A stretch of DNA of 11,089 nt, taken from a bacterium. GTDB lineage: Bacteria > Armatimonadota > Zipacnadia > Zipacnadales > Zipacnadaceae. Where the stretch lies: positions 1 through 11,089 of the forward strand of contig JAUVXR010000048.1 of the NCBI GenBank assembly GCA_030603495.1, in the 5' to 3' direction. Below are positions 1-11,089 of this stretch, piece by piece; position 1 is the first letter of the stretch, and each line of letters begins with the position of its first letter. The notes under the pieces were generated by a model that searched no databases, was not told where the DNA came from, and saw only the letters and a program-made list of their open reading frames with translations. The position numbers and the translations under genes are program-made.

Positions 1-655
1 CCAAGTCAGGATGTGTCTCTCCTCGCTCGCGCGCCTGCCTCCACGGTGAACCTGAATTGATCTCTCGCAATTCGTCCTCGTATTCGTAATCTGTGACGCT
101 GCAACCACCCAGCTCCACCACCGGCCAGCCCATCTCCCACAATCGCAATCCCAGCCGTGTATCGCCGCCATAGGTGTGCATGCCATCATCGCCCCACCAG
201 CCAGCCAGGTCGCCCAGCCAGCGGCGCAGCAGGCAACACTGGCCGTAATGATAGCCGAATGCGCCACTGACCCGTGGCGTATTGGGCTGTCCGCGCCGCT
301 GGAACTTTTGCCCGAAGGCGATCATTCCCACGCCCGGATTGGCCTGCATGTGCCTGTAAGCACGAGCAAGCGTGTCGCCATCCACGGTGATGTCGTCGTT
401 GAGAAGCGCCACGTACTGCCCCGTCGCTGCCTCTGCGCCAGCATTGAACGCCACAATAGCGCCCATGAGCTTGCCTTGCTCAATTAGCATGATATCCTCT
501 TGCTCCTGGCACCACGCTATCGTGCCATCGGTGCTGCCGCCGTCCACGAGGATAATCTCGTGATCCAGGCCGCCGATGGATTGGCGCACGCTGCCTACCA
601 TGCGCTTGAGTAGCGAAAGGCGGTTGTATGTGCCAGAAACTATGCTCACTTGCAT
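1..655 (-). CDS. Family 2 (GT-A) glycosyltransferase, 3' end beyond window
   Basis: This open frame starts at the ATG at 655 and runs off the left edge without a stop, giving 218 visible residues. It resembles GT2 glycosyltransferases, which transfer a sugar from a nucleotide-sugar donor to an acceptor. The N-terminus has the GT-A start SIVSGTYNR (4-12), then the nucleotide-binding strand EIILVDGGSTDGT (33-45), and the metal-binding DxD-like LLNDD (84-88). A later segment, GGDTRLGLRLWEMGWP (163-178), fits the region that usually carries the catalytic acid and acceptor contacts. GAGG lies 7 nt before the ATG, and the upstream gene stops at 665, so the start is well supported. There is no signal peptide or membrane span in the visible part, so a cytoplasmic enzyme is likely. 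Donor and acceptor are unknown. The family is secure; a role in modifying virion or host glycans is inferred from the neighbouring methyltransferase and sulfotransferase. Confidence 0.88.
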   Translation of the reverse strand, partial: MQVSIVSGTYNRLSLLKRMVGSVRQSIGGLDHEIILVDGGSTDGTIAWCQEQEDIMLIEQGKLMGAIVAFNAGAEAATGQYVALLNDDITVDGDTLARAYRHMQANPGVGMIAFGQKFQRRGQPNTPRVSGAFGYHYGQCCLLRRWLGDLAGWWGDDGMHTYGGDTRLGLRLWEMGWPVVELGGCSVTDYEYEDELREINSGSPWRQARERGETHPDL

Positions 656-664
656 AAGTACGCC

Positions 665-865
665 TCAATCATTCCACGTGTCAAATATCGTTGCCAATGT
701 AGCGTTACACGCCTCAGTAATCATCGGTGTAAGGTCATGTGCTGGCCCTTCCAAGGTTGTAACCTCTTCTGGCGATGGGTCACGCCACTTAGGTATTGCT
801 GCATGTATATCGTCACACACATGCACTTCACCGCGCCCGTTTATGACTGCTATCATCATTTGCAT
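665..865 (-). CDS. Small protein of unknown function in the glycan cassette
   Basis: A 66-aa protein I do not recognise. It begins with a short hydrophobic strand (MIAVINGRGEV) that could be a small beta hairpin, followed by a polar, acidic C-terminal half ending in DTWND. It lacks membrane spans and obvious catalytic motifs. The start is ambiguous. ATG at 865 has GGAGG only 4 nt upstream. ATG at 859 has the same GGAGG 10 nt away and forms an ATGA overlap with the stop of the preceding zinc-finger-like gene, which is the coupling geometry used elsewhere in this window; it would give 64 aa. The gene ends 9 nt before the glycosyltransferase start, so the two are very probably co-translated. Its reality rests on this tight packing and on a good ribosome site, not on homology. 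Confidence 0.6.
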   Translation of the reverse strand: MQMMIAVINGRGEVHVCDDIHAAIPKWRDPSPEEVTTLEGPAHDLTPMITEACNATLATIFDTWND

Positions 866-1068
866 GTTGCCTCCACGCCTGGCAGCCTGGTAGCCGCGAT
901 ATAAATGCAGTCCTTGGTATGGCCCGTGCTCTCACGCCGACCACAGAAGAAACACAATTTATCGACGTGACACCCCGTATCGACAGAGTCCATATCCATC
1001 ACATACGGATCACCGGAAGCCTCGAACCAGCCCCACCACAATTCCAATGCGCCGCTCTCGCTATCCAT
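856..1068 (-). CDS. Small putative zinc-binding protein (CxxC/HxxxC)
   Basis: A 70-aa protein whose C-terminal half holds CFFCGRRESTGHTKDC (39-54), a C-x2-C-x7-H-x3-C arrangement typical of a small zinc knuckle. Small proteins with a CxxC and a downstream HxxxC recur in phage genomes, generally without assigned function. The N-terminal half is acidic and tryptophan-rich (ELWWGWFEASGD). The start at 1068 overlaps the end of the methyltransferase gene by 8 nt, and the stop overlaps the start of the next small gene. No convincing Shine-Dalgarno precedes it, so translation may depend on coupling to the methyltransferase. A nucleic-acid or protein-binding role is possible, but only the metal-site pattern is seen directly. 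It is too short for an enzyme and probably acts as an accessory factor. Confidence 0.65.
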   Translation of the reverse strand: MDSESGALELWWGWFEASGDPYVMDMDSVDTGCHVDKLCFFCGRRESTGHTKDCIYIAATRLPGVEATCK

Positions 1069-1594
1069 TCCACGTCGCTCTCACGTTCAGGCTGATGTCG
1101 TAGCCTGCAATCGTCGTGATCTCGTCCACCGACCAATCGGAATATCCGCCTGGCAGCCAGGCCCGCGCATCGTAGCGTGCCACATCCGTATAGCCCGCCA
1201 TCTCCAGCGCTATCTTGAGCGTATCCAGGTCCCAGGTGGAGTAGTGGAAATTCTCCTCGTAGCCCTGCCCGCCCATCAATACCCAACGCAATGGGCGCAA
1301 GTTCACGCCGTCGTTGTATGCCTTGGCGACTGTCTCAAAGTCAGGCATCGCCAACCGCAGCTCACCGCCCGGCCTGAGCACACGGCCCCACTCTTTGAAC
1401 GCACCACCGACGGCGCGGAAGGAAAGATGCTCCAGGCCATGACAGAAATAGATCAGGTCGGCGCTGTCGTCGTCGAAGCACGTCAGGTCGCGTACATCGG
1501 CCACATAGTCGGGCTTGACCTCTGCCCGCGCGTCTACGTGCACGAGGCCAGCCAGGCGCTTGGTTCCACAGCCCAGGTGAATCCTAATGGGCAT
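1061..1594 (-). CDS. Class I SAM-dependent methyltransferase
   Basis: A 177-aa Rossmann-fold methyltransferase. Motif I is IHLGCGTKRLAG (5-16), the acidic residue after strand 2 is D21, ADLIYFCHGLEHL (45-57) matches the motif that follows strand 4, and RVLRPGGELRLAMPD (71-85) is the usual strand-5 block. The C-terminus DWSVDEIT...ISLNVRA resembles small bacterial methyltransferases found in polysaccharide gene clusters. It lacks the DPPY/NPPY motif of DNA adenine methyltransferases and the PC motif of cytosine-5 enzymes, so DNA modification is unlikely; a sugar or other small acceptor is more plausible. Its length is short but complete for this class. The start ATG at 1594 overlaps the sulfotransferase stop by 11 nt, indicating one transcript and probable coupling. 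The substrate is unknown. I infer O-methylation of a glycan from the flanking sulfotransferase and GT2 genes. Confidence 0.87.
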   Translation of the reverse strand: MPIRIHLGCGTKRLAGLVHVDARAEVKPDYVADVRDLTCFDDDSADLIYFCHGLEHLSFRAVGGAFKEWGRVLRPGGELRLAMPDFETVAKAYNDGVNLRPLRWVLMGGQGYEENFHYSTWDLDTLKIALEMAGYTDVARYDARAWLPGGYSDWSVDEITTIAGYDISLNVRATWNG

Positions 1595-2327
1595 AGATCA
1601 ACTCCAGTGCATAATCGTACAACTCCTGATCGAGTTGCACATACTTTAACACCCAGTCCCAATCAGATTGACACGGCACATAGTGTTCGACGGCATTGAT
1701 TCTCCCGTATGTCGTCGGTTCAGGGACCGGTTTCAATTCCAGGCGCCGGTGCAGCCGTCGTACAAAGTCGTCGAACCGCTCCATCACGCCCACGACCGCG
1801 CACTGGCGCAGATTGGCCTTGGCTCGTTCCAGGTGCTGCCGCGTCACGCCGCCGTAGGGGATAATCATATCCCTGAATGCCCCGCTATCGGTCTTATGTA
1901 AGAAGCGGTCGGCTCCGCAGAGTTGACGTACCATCCCGTTGTCGATAGTGAGAGAGACGCCTTTCTTTATAAATTGATCTAGCCTATAGTCCGGGCTCGC
2001 CGTGAACTCGTGTAGATAATGTCTATCCCGCCGCTTTGCATAGCTATACAGCGAGATCACCCGCACGGCCGGATCGCGTAGTATGGTCACGAGTTGGCAT
2101 TTCTGCGGCAATTCGTGATGCCAGCCCCAGCACAGATGCCCGAACAGCAGCCGTATCTTACGCTTCTGTGCATCAGTTATCGTCACCAGTTTTGTCAGAT
2201 CATCTTGTATCTCGTGGCTGACGATGAACCTCTCCTCCACCGGGAAATGGCGATATAGAATTCCGCTCAGCGTCGTGCCGCCGGTGCGCGGGATGTGCAC
2301 AAATACCAGTGTTTCGTCTTGGTTCAT
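1584..2327 (-). CDS. PAPS-dependent sulfotransferase (carbohydrate type, family 2-like)
   Basis: A 247-aa protein expected to move a sulfuryl group from PAPS to a hydroxyl, usually on a carbohydrate. The 5'-phosphosulfate loop is HIPRTGGTTL (11-20), including the catalytic-type basic residue region. FGHLCWGWH (62-70) corresponds to the GH-containing segment of the Sulfotransfer_2 family. TILRDPAVRVISLYSYAK (81-98) is the 3'-phosphate-binding motif with R84 and S92. DNGMVRQLCG (129-138) and VVGVMERFDDF (178-188) are further family signatures. There is no signal peptide or membrane anchor, unlike the Golgi enzymes of animals, so it should be cytosolic. It is the first gene after the major capsid protein, separated by a strong hairpin, and overlaps the methyltransferase by 11 nt. 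Its ribosome site (AAGAGAA) is weak. The fold is confident; the acceptor is unknown. Sulfotransferases are uncommon in phage genomes. Confidence 0.88.
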   Translation of the reverse strand: MNQDETLVFVHIPRTGGTTLSGILYRHFPVEERFIVSHEIQDDLTKLVTITDAQKRKIRLLFGHLCWGWHHELPQKCQLVTILRDPAVRVISLYSYAKRRDRHYLHEFTASPDYRLDQFIKKGVSLTIDNGMVRQLCGADRFLHKTDSGAFRDMIIPYGGVTRQHLERAKANLRQCAVVGVMERFDDFVRRLHRRLELKPVPEPTTYGRINAVEHYVPCQSDWDWVLKYVQLDQELYDYALELIYAH

Positions 2328-2400: not shown

Positions 2401-3519
2401 CTATGTCCCTACGTGCGTGGGCCAGCAGTCACCGTAGAGGTAGTTAGGCGGTGTGAAGCTCGGGCCACCGTCCACCTCGTAGATGCCACCACTACCGGTC
2501 ACGTCAGGATACGTCCCCAGCGGCACGCAGCAAACGTTCGTCACGCGCCCGGCCAGCTGCGGCATCGTCATTCTGACGCGCGGCTTGGTCAAGATGCGCA
2601 CGTCGAAGCAGAAACCGCCGCTGTGATCCGGCGCGATTGCAAACCGTCCGCCATCGGTCACATCCACGATGGATGCACCGAAGGTCTTGCGGAACCAGGA
2701 AATCACCGAGCCGCCAGATGCCTGCATGTCCTGGTACTCACCCCAGGTGATGATCCCACCACCGGGCGAGTCCGTCACCTGCGGTGCTCCGGGCAGCACG
2801 CGGGTGATGACGTAGATGGACGAACAACGCTTGGTCACGCTGCCGGAGGGCAGGTTGGTGACGGTGATGCCGTTGTCCAGTGTCACTGGATAGTTCTTGC
2901 CGTCGATGCGCAGGAAGAAGCCATTCTTGAACTCATCCCGCAACTGGGCGATGGCCAGCGAGTCGTTGTTCATCGTCGTGGTCGTGCTGGTGCTCTGGCA
3001 CGTCAGCCCATATTCACAGGCCCAGGCGTCGGCCACGCAGTCCCACAGCGTCGGGTGCATGATGATGTCGATCAGCGCCGTCGAACTGTCGAAGCCCGCC
3101 GTCTGGATGCGGTACAAGATCGACCGCACGATGGCCGACACCTGGGCGACGATGCTCGGACTACCCGCCGCGCCCACGATGGCGTTGCCATAGTTGGCGA
3201 TGATGCTGTCCAGCGCAGCGCAGGCAAAGCCGGTCAGCGCATCCACCTTGCCCGTGTTGATGAGCAAGTCGAATCCAGTCATGAACCAACGCCCACCCGC
3301 GTTGCCGGTCGGGTTACCGGTCCAGATGTCCACACCGACCTGGCGGCGCAGGTTGTACGCTGCTGCTGCCGCCTGGAGAGTGAACATGTTGGTGACCGGT
3401 TCGCCCTGCCGGATCAGGATGTTACCAGATGGATCGGTCAGATTGCCGTAGAACGCCAGGGTGGGAACATTGCGATTGGCGCGCACGCCAATCTCGTCGA
3501 ACACCATCTCGTCGGTCAT
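2401..3519 (-). CDS. Major capsid protein, main C-terminal part
   Basis: A 372-aa product beginning at ATG 3519 (MTDEMVFDEIG). It lies where tailed phages carry the HK97-fold major capsid protein, directly after protease-scaffold. The C-terminal segment with KPRVRMTMPQLAGRV and a closing proline/glycine-rich tail (YEVDGGPSF) resembles the P/A-domain ends of phage capsid proteins, and a central helix-rich portion (about 95-190) is followed by beta-rich sequence. The start forms an ATGA overlap with the stop of the upstream 114-aa frame, and no Shine-Dalgarno precedes it, unlike most structural genes here. This frame stays open upstream to 3669, but that extension looks like out-of-frame sequence. 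It therefore appears to be the larger part of one capsid protein whose N-terminus is encoded in the other frame. Nine cysteines are present. The capsid identity comes from context plus sequence feel, not from a database search. Confidence 0.8.
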   Translation of the reverse strand: MTDEMVFDEIGVRANRNVPTLAFYGNLTDPSGNILIRQGEPVTNMFTLQAAAAAYNLRRQVGVDIWTGNPTGNAGGRWFMTGFDLLINTGKVDALTGFACAALDSIIANYGNAIVGAAGSPSIVAQVSAIVRSILYRIQTAGFDSSTALIDIIMHPTLWDCVADAWACEYGLTCQSTSTTTTMNNDSLAIAQLRDEFKNGFFLRIDGKNYPVTLDNGITVTNLPSGSVTKRCSSIYVITRVLPGAPQVTDSPGGGIITWGEYQDMQASGGSVISWFRKTFGASIVDVTDGGRFAIAPDHSGGFCFDVRILTKPRVRMTMPQLAGRVTNVCCVPLGTYPDVTGSGGIYEVDGGPSFTPPNYLYGDCWPTHVGT

Positions 3520-3860
3520 TGGCAGATGCGCCCGAAGCAGGTCGTCTGGGCACAGCGCTTGATACACGGCTTTCCACAGTCGTAACACATGGAAGCCTGG
3601 GCATAGGTACTCGAAGAGATGCTGGTCAGTGATTCGGTGATGGGATTCTCGTGAATCGTGCCCGTCCACTGCATCTTGCCCATGTAGCCGTGGAGTCCCA
3701 CCAGCGCGTTGATCAGCACCGGGTCATTCTTACACGAACCGAACAAGCCACCTTCCTCGTAGGCATAGGTGGTGATCGGGGTGCCCGACGCCTTCACTAC
3801 AGCGCCGAGGTGCGGCGCGATTGCTTGGGCGAGGGCTGCCATAACTGCGTCTTGCTGCAT
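3516..3860 (-). CDS. Major capsid protein, N-terminal part in a separate frame
   Basis: A 114-aa frame with a strong GGAGG site 9 nt before the ATG at 3860, 42 nt after the protease-scaffold stop. It opens with a hydrophobic amphipathic helix (DAVMAALAQAIAPHL), continues with beta-prone sequence, and ends in a cysteine cluster with C92, C95, C99, C103, C108 and C113. The frame stops at 3516 in TGA overlapping the ATG of the main capsid frame. The end of this frame (CFGRICQ) followed by MTDEMVFDEIG reads like one continuous N-arm/E-loop region, so I think both frames encode one capsid polypeptide of about 485 residues. The break may be a base missing from the assembly, a -1 frameshift, or a genuine two-gene split with re-initiation. 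I see no canonical X-XXY-YYZ slippery site. It could also be an independent small head protein. Confidence 0.72.
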   Translation of the reverse strand: MQQDAVMAALAQAIAPHLGAVVKASGTPITTYAYEEGGLFGSCKNDPVLINALVGLHGYMGKMQWTGTIHENPITESLTSISSSTYAQASMCYDCGKPCIKRCAQTTCFGRICQ

Positions 3861-3902: not shown

Positions 3903-5156
3903 CTACTGATTGCCATAGCGGGCCGCGTAGTCACTCGCTGGCGCTTCCGCTGGCCCTTTCGTTTCACCTTCGCCCTTAACCGCGCTTTCGCTGCGCTGGA
4001 CTGAATTTCCCCACATCCGACTGAACCAGTCACCGTCGGAATCCAGGGCCGCCTTGACCTTGGCGGCCTCCGTGGTCGCCAGTGCTTTGATCTGCGCATC
4101 GAGCTCGTCTGACTTGGCGGTGAGTGCTTCCACCGCACTGGTCAACGGCTCGAAACGCTGGTCGATGGCCGTGGCGATGCCGGGCAGGATTTTATCGAGT
4201 GCGCCGGTCAGGGCGCTCATGGTCAGTGCGTCCTCGGTCGGTTCCTGCTCCAGCTTCGGTTCCTCTGTGGTGGCTTCCGGTTCAGTCGTTTCCACTTGCT
4301 CTCGTTCCACTTCTTGCTCTTCGAGGTTCTTTCCCTCGTCCATGTCTGTCTCTCCTTTGGCCTTGATCAGCGCCCCGTCCGGCAATCCCTTCGCCGTCCG
4401 GGCCCCTTCCAATTCGGCCACGATTTCCTCGCCTTCTTCGCCCAAGACATTCTTGGCGTCCTCTGCGATTGTAGTCATAGATTTGACCTCCATCACAGCG
4501 CCAGGATCACAGGGTGTCGCGGTCATGGCGATGCTGTCCAGCCACGGATAGCCGCTGCCACCCCGGTATACCCGGCGCTCGTGTTCTGTTTCTACGCACG
4601 AATAGTCCGGGTATACGACTACGCTCACCCGCCTATCCTCTGGTTTACGTTCGATAGCAGCTTTCGCCGCCAGTTGGCCTAGCCGGGTGTCATCGAAATA
4701 GCCTTGTGCGAACAGTGCCCGACCGTCACGCCACATTTTATCGAGCCAACCCGCACGGGCCAGGTTGCGCCTTGCTTCTGGCAAATAAATGCTGTAATGA
4801 GAGATGTCTAAGATCGGTTCCGTCATCCCATCGGGGGGAGGATTCCCCTTGCTTAGCGCCTCTTTGACGCGGTAGAAATTGGCTATCACGTCATCGAAGA
4901 ACGCCTGGTCAAAGCGCTCCTGGAGCAAGTCAAACTCGCCGGTGTTGGCCCGTGCCTGCCAGCGGATACGCCCGTTCTGGAGCTTTTGCACCTTGGTGAT
5001 CTTCATCACCAGCGTTTTGGCCTTGTCCTCGCGCCACATGCTGAAACAGATGGCGATGGCCTGCTGCTGGTCCTCTGCCGTGCCTTCCTTCAGCACAATG
5101 GGGATGCAGCGGCTCACGAAGTCCTTTCTCGATTCATCCTCTCTCGGTGTTGGCAT
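3903..5156 (-). CDS. Prohead serine protease fused to scaffold domain
   Basis: A 417-aa protein with three regions. Residues 1-48 form a small helical module (SRKDFVSRCIPIV...AIAICFSMW), common at the N-terminus of XkdF-like phage proteins. Residues 50-225 look like a capsid-maturation protease: H120 in DISHYSIYLP and S178 in RRVSVVV are candidate catalytic residues about 58 apart, and ATPCDPGA (213-220) matches the strand that closes the protease fold. Residues 227-417 are acidic, with a Glu/Thr/Pro-rich linker (about 272-310) and a predicted coiled coil (about 315-370), as expected of a scaffold that fills the prohead and is later cleaved. GAGGTGA lies just before the ATG. It precedes the capsid gene, as in many phages. 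Two strong internal ribosome sites (listed separately) suggest that free scaffold is also made. The catalytic residues are my assignment from motif position. Confidence 0.8.
   Translation of the reverse strand: MPTPREDESRKDFVSRCIPIVLKEGTAEDQQQAIAICFSMWREDKAKTLVMKITKVQKLQNGRIRWQARANTGEFDLLQERFDQAFFDDVIANFYRVKEALSKGNPPPDGMTEPILDISHYSIYLPEARRNLARAGWLDKMWRDGRALFAQGYFDDTRLGQLAAKAAIERKPEDRRVSVVVYPDYSCVETEHERRVYRGGSGYPWLDSIAMTATPCDPGAVMEVKSMTTIAEDAKNVLGEEGEEIVAELEGARTAKGLPDGALIKAKGETDMDEGKNLEEQEVEREQVETTEPEATTEEPKLEQEPTEDALTMSALTGALDKILPGIATAIDQRFEPLTSAVEALTAKSDELDAQIKALATTEAAKVKAALDSDGDWFSRMWGNSVQRSESAVKGEGETKGPAEAPASDYAARYGNQ
4341..4358 (-). promoter_or_regulatory. Internal ribosome site and ATG for a shorter scaffold (146 aa)
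   Basis: AAAGGAG at 4352-4358 is followed 8 nt later by an in-frame ATG at 4343, which is codon 272 of the protease-scaffold gene. The product would begin MDEGKNLEEQ and contain only the acidic linker and the coiled coil. The spacing is near ideal. Use of this site is inferred; the sequence match is direct. Confidence 0.45.
4476..4491 (-). promoter_or_regulatory. Internal ribosome site and ATG at the protease/scaffold boundary
   Basis: GGAGGT at 4486-4491 precedes an in-frame ATG at 4478 by 7 nt. This is codon 227 (MTTIAEDAKN), immediately after the last protease-like strand, and would give a 191-aa free scaffold. A nested scaffold start inside a protease gene is known in phage lambda (Nu3 within C). 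The placement at the domain boundary makes this the better of the two internal start candidates. Confidence 0.5.
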
Positions 5157-9564: not shown

Positions 9565-9836
9565 CGGTGGTATGGGTGAATCTTCTTTATACGCAGCCAC
9601 AGGCAGCCAAGCCGGTGCCTTACTACCATCACCGTCCCGTACCGGCATCCACAGAACTTACAGAGCAAGTTAGCTGGATCATTCAGGTACAGCGGAGTAG
9701 CATCACACTCTATGATGTCAAACCACGGTTGATGCAGTGTCAGCACGATGTCGTGATATTCGCGCCAGTGAAACAGCACGAACAGGAAATCGGATAGGAC
9801 TTGTCTCAAGCGCCTGTATAGACTTGGTTTTCTCAT
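9561..9836 (-). CDS. Small protein with CxxCxC, unknown function
   Basis: A 91-aa protein whose ATG at 9836 overlaps the terminase stop as ATGA, with GAGG 9 nt upstream. The N-terminal third is basic with an aromatic patch (LSDFLFVLFHWREYH); this is not long enough for a clear membrane span. The middle contains LLCKFCGCRYGT, a CxxCxC motif resembling half of a zinc ribbon, without an obvious second pair; a later cysteine lies in RLGCLW. The C-terminus is basic. Position immediately after the large terminase and metal-like cysteines would fit a nucleic-acid-associated accessory such as a packaging or HNH-like remnant, but the HNH histidines and asparagine are not seen. Confidence 0.62.
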   Translation of the reverse strand: MRKPSLYRRLRQVLSDFLFVLFHWREYHDIVLTLHQPWFDIIECDATPLYLNDPANLLCKFCGCRYGTVMVVRHRLGCLWLRIKKIHPYHR

Positions 9837-11089
9837 AAGTTCAGCCTCAACGCTTCATAAGAACACATCGACAACGCCACAGCCAAGTCCACCTTTAGCC
9901 CTTCCTCCCGCTTGACGATGCGCAGCCGCTTGCCGTCGTTGTTTAGCTTCCGGTTGGCATTATCCATATGCTTGCGCAACATGGCATTGCCATCGTGTGC
10001 TATCCGGCGCTGCATGATCAAATCGAGCAGTTGCCGGTCAGCCTCCAGCCGTTGGTTGCCCTGTGAGAACTTCTTCAGCCAGGCCACGCCGCCTTTGCGC
10101 AGCCGCCCCGCCATATCGTGCAACTCGGTCGGATCATAGCATATTTGCACTACGTTGTAATTCGTGCACAGCCAGCGTACTACCCGCTCTGGCCCTGGTC
10201 GCTCTTCCGTGCCCTGGAAGTCTATCTCGCCTCCGGGCCTGGCTTGCCACGTCTGGACGAATCTCACCGCCAGGTCATCGGTACGCCGTTTCGGATGACG
10301 GCTCACGGCCACGATGCCAAAGCAATCGCTCACCGCATCAGTGCGCCCCGTCGCTGCATCCATCGCCACCACTATCGGCTCTTTCAGCCCCAACGTCGGG
10401 AGCGCTTCCTTGCACTTGTCCCACAAAATCATATTCGGCAAGAACCGCTCCGTGTCCTCTATGTCCTCCCACTCAGCCTCCAGCAGCACCCGCGCCTCGG
10501 CCGCCGTCAGCGTCAGCGCCCGCTTGTCCACGAAGCCCGGCTCCAGGTTGGCCGCGTTGTCGGCGGTGAGCAATGTCACCACCAGGCTCTGCGCCTTGAA
10601 ACCGGCGTGCGGGTCGTCGTCCACCGGCGGGCCGAAGTACTCGAACAGCCAGTGCTTGCGCGGCGTCGTGGTGATCCAGATTTGCGGCGACTCCCCGCCC
10701 GGGCCGGGGATGCGCACTCGACCATCGAGCACCTTGAGCGCGTCGGCCTTCTTGCGCCGGCGGGCTTCGTCGAAGTGGGCGAAGTTGACGTTCGGCCCCT
10801 CCCACGCTCCGGGGTCATCTATCCCCCCACAATAGAGCGTCGCGCCGTTCTTGAATACGATGCTGAATGGCCTGTACGGCTCCCACGTCTGGTGCCGCAT
10901 GCGCCGGTGCTTCTCCACCACCTGCGACCAGGGACACCAGCGGCGGAACTCGGGCCACAGACTGACGCGGAAGTGCGGGAGATCAGGGCTGACCATGATG
11001 CCACTCATGCCACGCTTGAGACGATTCAGCGTCTTGATGATTCCCGCGACGCTCTTGCCGCCACCCTCACCGCCTTTCAGGAGGGTGTA
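9833..11089 (-). CDS. Terminase large subunit, N-terminus beyond window
   Basis: The frame is open to the right edge, giving 418 residues; the ATG at 11008 is internal because the upstream 27 codons in frame hold GGEGGGKS, a Walker A P-loop. Walker B is NFAHFDEA, and WITTTPR is the coupling motif of the ATPase. The nuclease half starts at IVVAMDAATGRTDA (first acidic residue of the RNase H-like fold), has a second acidic site in VQICYDPTELHDM, and a third near KVDLAVALSMCSYEA at the end. It is the DNA translocase and endonuclease that packages and cuts the genome at the portal vertex. It leads the operon; its stop overlaps the next start as ATGA. The order terminase, portal, protease and capsid supports the call, which is firm. 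Confidence 0.93.
   Translation of the reverse strand, partial: YTLLKGGEGGGKSVAGIIKTLNRLKRGMSGIMVSPDLPHFRVSLWPEFRRWCPWSQVVEKHRRMRHQTWEPYRPFSIVFKNGATLYCGGIDDPGAWEGPNVNFAHFDEARRRKKADALKVLDGRVRIPGPGGESPQIWITTTPRKHWLFEYFGPPVDDDPHAGFKAQSLVVTLLTADNAANLEPGFVDKRALTLTAAEARVLLEAEWEDIEDTERFLPNMILWDKCKEALPTLGLKEPIVVAMDAATGRTDAVSDCFGIVAVSRHPKRRTDDLAVRFVQTWQARPGGEIDFQGTEERPGPERVVRWLCTNYNVVQICYDPTELHDMAGRLRKGGVAWLKKFSQGNQRLEADRQLLDLIMQRRIAHDGNAMLRKHMDNANRKLNNDGKRLRIVKREEGLKVDLAVALSMCSYEALRLNL

Follow-up and report, generated by a model that had tools for sequence, protein, structure and literature searches.

What is modified by a group of glycosyltransferase, methyltransferase and sulfotransferase genes that an uncultivated tailed phage carries directly behind its probable major capsid gene? 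The question is raised by an 11,089-bp stretch of DNA, here called the window, which is the whole of contig C57 in a metagenome-assembled genome (MAG) bin of the Armatimonadota (G000; 2.67 Mb, 62 contigs). Its recognized genes all lie on the minus strand and run from a cut terminase large subunit (TerL) gene through a portal candidate, small head genes, a protease/scaffold candidate and the capsid candidate into the cassette, and the contig ends truncate TerL at one side and a family 2 glycosyltransferase (GT2) at the other. We put at roughly one in two the probability that this cassette, together with its continuation on a second contig, is an operon for decoration of the virion with a glycan that is sulfated and probably also sulfonated and methylated. 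The cassette genes within the window are as follows.

1584 to 2327, minus strand: sulfotransferase (ST) of the Sulfotransfer_2 type, 247 amino acids (aa), by Pfam match and 3'-phosphoadenosine-5'-phosphosulfate (PAPS) loops; nearest to heparan-sulfate 6-O/2-O sulfotransferases
1061 to 1594, minus strand: class I S-adenosylmethionine (SAM) methyltransferase (MT), Methyltransf_11, 177 aa, by Pfam match and LGCG motif
856 to 1068, minus strand: small open reading frame (ORF), 70 aa, without family match, overlapping the MT end
665 to 865, minus strand: small ORF, 66 aa, without family match
2 to 655, minus strand: GT2 domain of a two-domain glycosyltransferase, first 218 aa in the window, by Pfam match; truncated by the contig end

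A first-pass annotation had placed a GT2, a class I SAM methyltransferase and a PAPS sulfotransferase in one gene set, and Pfam scores and motifs agree. The GT2 matches Glycos_transf_2 (1.2e-21, 77.8 bits against a cut-off of 23.3) and carries NDD at residue 86, a DxD-type motif invariant in five sequences, and GGD at residue 163; the MT matches Methyltransf_11 (1.7e-8, 35.4 bits against 21.2), with the glycine-rich motif I, LGCG, at residue 7. The distance of 73 nucleotides (nt) given there between the capsid stop and the start of the set, that is, of the ST gene, is exact. Missing from that annotation were the continuation of the operon and the two small ORFs between MT and GT2. ST, MT and the small ORFs overlap end to start (ST and MT by 11 nt), and GT2 begins 9 nt after the second small ORF.

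The ST is predicted from family score, PAPS loops and fold to be a PAPS-dependent carbohydrate sulfotransferase. It passes the Sulfotransfer_2 (PF03567) cut-off (2.6e-5, 24.9 bits against 22), and its relatives score below that cut-off in a whole-record search. The 5'-phosphosulfate-binding loop reads HIPRTGGTT (from residue 11) and the 3'-phosphate-binding loop LRDPAVRVIS (residue 83), with FGHLCWGWH at residue 62; R84, S92 and H64 are invariant across five STs. A profile built from these five finds HS6ST3 (7.6e-11) and HS2ST (2e-7) in the PDB, and an AlphaFold2 model (predicted local distance difference test [pLDDT] 72) superimposes on HS2ST with Z 14.5 at 3.7 Å over 225 residues and on HS6ST with Z 13.0, as against less than 8 for cytosolic SULTs. 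H64, which may be the catalytic base, falls on the Gly-His motif of HS2ST in the alignment. The heparan-sulfate enzymes HS2ST and HS6ST3 are thus the best matches in both sequence profile and fold, sharing both PAPS loops and the aligned Gly-His motif, but identity is 17 to 18%, the phage enzyme has no membrane anchor, and its 5' loop has Arg in place of the usual Lys, a site for which both residues are given in a review (PMC11625862). The comparison with carbohydrate sulfotransferase structures that the first-pass annotation had called for therefore found both the loop motifs and the fold kept. PAPS could come from the host, since an APS kinase gene is present in the bin. A recent origin of the ST from a host finds no support, because the ST profile matched nothing in 100 kin genomes, the window itself being the sole match among 101 genomes (the bin and its kin). 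The ST, capsid and SQD1-like proteins had no match in 50,697 phage records, nor had the ST of a related locus (L005) at E up to 1.

The neighbor on which the argument leans is the capsid gene, and the two features at this end of the cassette are these.

2335 to 2375 (approximate), minus strand: GC-rich hairpin of 14 bp in the gap from the capsid stop to the ST start; strong, z -5.2
2401 to 3860, minus strand: probable HK97-fold major capsid gene, from position and a weak model; in two frames, 3516 to 3860 and 2401 to 3669

Earlier called the major capsid gene outright, it is probably that, given its position and PDB matches: the model has low confidence (pLDDT 40), and HK97-fold capsids or encapsulins make up nearly all of the 50 PDB entries listed for it by VIA-align, with a best Z of 8.6. 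PHROGs and Pfam supplied no name, and BFVD gave one strong match, unnamed. The N-terminal frame stops near 3516 and homology to the relative L002 resumes in another frame, whereas relatives have a single frame; the split at 3516 to 3669 may be an assembly error, a real lesion or a frameshift. The N-terminal part (3516 to 3860) contains a Cys-rich CxxC...C...C stretch kept in several relatives; a likeness of the capsid profile to the bL32 zinc ribbon was non-significant (E 0.25) and was set aside. Hairpins of other sequence stand in the same place in L002, L005 and L006, followed in L006 by a T run, and the hairpin may act as a leaky terminator that would keep cassette expression below that of the capsid gene.

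The operon likely continues on contig C53 (L034) of the same bin, through two features.

1 to 83 of the window, no strand assigned: exact 83-bp overlap with C53, as the reverse complement of C53 1 to 83
4438 to 5622 of C53, outside the window: SQD1-like UDP-sulfoquinovose synthase, by family match

The GT2 frame runs unbroken across the junction (L034 1 to 1177) to give a protein of 582 aa, to which C53 adds a second glycosyltransferase (GT) domain (Glyco_trans_1_2, 1.5e-22); the GT2s of L002, L003, L006 and L009 have the length of the joined protein and align throughout. There follow on C53 a second GT2, the SQD1-like enzyme, an FkbM methyltransferase, a DUF1360-like gene, a connector-like gene and a BNR-repeat tail gene. 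Gene content agrees with that of L002, L006 and L009, which have the second GT2, the FkbM methyltransferase (in L006 a second sulfotransferase), and the DUF1360-like, connector-like and BNR-repeat genes; the nucleotide-sugar enzyme, which L006 lacks, follows the second GT2 on C53 and precedes it in L002 and L009. Exact overlap, unbroken frame and matching content make it likely that the two contigs are contiguous in the phage genome and, through this join, that the glycan operon sits inside the head-tail block. The BNR/YCF48-like repeats (2.1e-8) belong to a likely tail protein (L034 8306 to 9817) that is conserved in L006 and L009.

The C53 enzyme matches Arabidopsis SQD1 over its whole length (1.3e-123, 382 residues), and the alignment keeps LGTMGEYG, the catalytic Thr of the short-chain dehydrogenase/reductase fold and YxxxK. 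Against the NCBIfam model for UDP-sulfoquinovose synthase (NF041015) it scores 1e-163 and 544.8 bits, which does not reach the curated equivalog cut-off of 575, and because it falls 30 bits short we name it SQD1-like only. Its relatives occur in at least 62 IMG/VR loci (L037 to L098), and all eight that were tested match the same family below the cut-off. The rest of the bin holds no other such gene at E 1e-30, and one of 60 related genomes has one (44%). SQD1 differs in setting, the phage enzyme lying in a glycan operon without sulfolipid context. A putative UDP-sulfoquinovose synthase has been reported before in a Mu-like virus (PMC7785012). An unrelated phage, L042 (248 to 12460), has an SQD1-like gene, a GT2 and methyltransferases, together with an ORF that weakly resembles sulfotransferases, in the interval from its capsid gene to an HK97-gp10-like gene. 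Sulfotransferase-like ORFs were also seen near SQD1-like genes in L041 and L059.

Relatives were gathered from IMG/VR with the capsid protein as bait, which gave L002 (66%), L003 (49%), L005 (44%), L006 (41%) and L007 (36%), and then with the GT2, which added L009 and more distant loci. The trio, which the first-pass annotation had proposed to seek beside capsid genes, recurs in most of the nearest relatives: the order capsid-ST-MT-GT2 is found in the window, L002, L005 (which ends 50 residues into the GT2) and L006, and L009, which begins inside the ST with the capsid gene beyond the contig, continues ST-MT-GT2. Identity to the window is 35 to 42% for ST, 42 to 48% for MT and about 57 to 67% for GT2 (L002, L005, L006, L009), and touching or overlapping ST/MT frames are preserved in five contigs. 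The trio does not appear in L003, where a 53% GT2 is preceded by a nucleotide-sugar transferase-like gene and a weak methyltransferase, or in L007, which has a different gene set after the capsid gene; no Sulfotransfer_2 match was obtained in L003, L007 or the more distant GT2 relatives L011 to L017. The trio is therefore a lineage feature in which the ST, to all appearance a tailoring gene, may be missing. Differing sugar enzymes (SQD1-like on C53, an epimerase in L002 whose best match is GDP-fucose synthase at 5.6e-50, a second ST in L006) suggest that the sugar chemistry has been swapped between sister phages. The second ST of L006 (8598 to 9350) is of the Sulfotransfer_1 type (5.5e-20) and stands later in the same cassette. 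GT genes remain beside the connector-like gene even in the distant phages L011 to L014 and L016.

Such variation could also mean that these enzymes are moron-like and independent of one another, each with its own substrate, their genes having gathered at a site after the capsid gene where insertions are tolerated, as the epimerase of L002 and L009, the second sulfotransferase of L006, the nucleotide-sugar transferase-like gene of L003 and the other set of L007 would suggest. We think this quite improbable, as the ST-MT-GT2 order with its touching or overlapping ST/MT frames has been held in five contigs at 35 to 67% identity, and most of the varying genes are also glycan enzymes.

The first-pass annotation had left open whether the glycan is placed on the capsid or on the host surface, and the evidence leans to the virion. 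Alteration of a host surface polysaccharide during infection, for receptor masking or superinfection exclusion in the manner of phage O-antigen conversion, is the main rival and strikes us as rather unlikely. The GT2 weakly matches PHROG 841, "GtrB-like O-antigen conversion" (5.8e-8), the ST has a carbohydrate-type fold, and some phages, S-SRM01 among them, have glycan islands away from head genes; but no transmembrane segment was found in the GTs, ST or MTs of the cassette, which leaves no membrane-anchored GtrB. A GtrA-type flippase was likewise not seen in the sequenced part of the operon, the sole membrane protein there being the DUF1360-like one (101 aa, two transmembrane segments), and in several lineages the genes are placed within the head-tail block.

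The records of L005 and L006 (G103 and G104) bear on a further possibility, namely that the enzymes hypermodify phage DNA bases by glycosylation and sulfation. Nucleotide modification by GTs and sulfotransferases has been proposed in phages (Iyer 2013, as cited in PMC10829341), and both records contain QueC, a marker of the DNA 7-deazaguanine pathway, with FolE-, QueD- and QueE-like families among the scanned proteins, so that they likely carry that modification pathway, to judge from these genes. Yet more than 20 kb separate the QueC genes from the cassette, which sits in the head-tail block and not with replication genes. These distant QueC genes and the carbohydrate-type fold of the ST make DNA modification less likely, and we rate it as very improbable. 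TET/JBP oxygenases gave no match in the phage, but the control genomes gave none either.

We return to decoration of the virion, for which several points argue: in the window phage and its relatives the cassette is flanked by capsid and connector/tail genes, GT genes stand beside the connector-like gene in distant phages, the transferases lack transmembrane segments, no flippase-like gene was seen, the unrelated L042 has comparable genes, and capsid glycans on mycobacteriophages Che8 and Rita are a precedent. The steps, target, product and benefit that we infer are these. The two-domain GT2/GT1-like enzyme and the second GT2 would put sugars on a virion protein in the cytoplasm and lengthen them, and the product of the neighboring capsid gene is the simplest candidate for the target. 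A sulfonated sugar nucleotide, UDP-sulfoquinovose, would come from the SQD1-like enzyme; the ST would move sulfate from PAPS made by the host; and hydroxyls would be capped by the two methyltransferases. The particle would in this way gain an acidic glycan that bears sulfur and may offer shielding, stability or altered adsorption. The sulfated, O-methylated glycan of the first-pass annotation thus finds support, as to sulfation and methylation, in the enzyme types, and its structure is a matter of prediction.

Several points weigh against decoration of the virion. The glycan is deduced from genes and not from chemistry, their position may reflect convenient insertion and not the target, and the substrate could be a tail protein instead of the capsid. 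The capsid call rests on position and a weak model, and the assembly shows the reading frame of this gene interrupted. Of the clade members seen, only the window's phage has the SQD1-like gene, and the absence of ST from L003 and L007 means that sulfation is not essential to the clade. We hold only tentatively, as possible but doubtful, that the capsid bears a glycan with both sulfoquinovose and sulfate esters, that such a strongly acidic sulfo-glycan coat is new for bacteriophages and that similar operons arose in unrelated phages.

The remaining features of the window are the upstream head genes.

9833 to 11089, minus strand: TerL, by family match; truncated at the contig end
7091 to 8722, minus strand: portal candidate, from position and size, without family match
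3903 to 5156, minus strand: protease/scaffold candidate upstream of the capsid gene, from position, without significant family match

Tetranucleotide distances between the window and sampled contigs of the bin (0.17 to 0.25) match or somewhat exceed those that the contigs show among themselves (0.09 to 0.23); the phage of L002 is similarly close to the bin (0.18 to 0.28), and those of L005, L006 and L009 are far (0.30 to 0.43). A DNA search of 61 genomes returned no convincing spacer match to the window, yielding only the C53 overlap and short partial matches, and the host is therefore assigned by binning and composition only. Alignment of the capsid against genome contigs found two relatives only, each at 29%.

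Sulfotransferases of viruses, a single viral SQD1 and glycans on phage capsids have each been described before (PMC10580990, PMC8290583, PMC10829341, PMC7785012, PMC11256854), and the function of phage sulfotransferases has been termed unclear in published work. Glycans are reported on the capsids of Che8 and Rita (Freeman 2023, as cited in PMC11256854), where phage-encoded GTs are thought to decorate the capsid protein; in the F1 phage described in the citing paper, however, the GT genes lie near the 3' end of the genome and not behind the capsid gene, and neither a sulfotransferase nor a sulfo-sugar enzyme is mentioned there. Synechococcus phage S-SRM01 (MW015081), an isolated phage reported to have a Sulfotransfer_3 protein (PMC10580990), groups GT2s, nucleotide-sugar enzymes and an FkbM methyltransferase, but its set is fucose based, no gene in the 30 kb shown is annotated as head or tail, and identity to the L002 GT2 is only 38% over 92 residues. 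In the literature searched we found no report that ties a phage sulfotransferase to capsid or virion glycans, nor one of a conserved capsid-adjacent operon that joins sulfotransferase, SQD1 and capsid glycosylation.

An operon that links a sulfotransferase to glycosyltransferases within the head-tail block gives the enzyme a concrete, testable role, that of particle decoration. Were this role borne out, phage capsids could bear charged sulfo-glycans, with a bearing on adsorption, stability and recognition, and these operons would be a source of sulfotransferases and sulfo-sugar enzymes that are new. A further suggestion would be that glycan synthesis, and not sulfur metabolism, is what some viral SQD1 genes are for.

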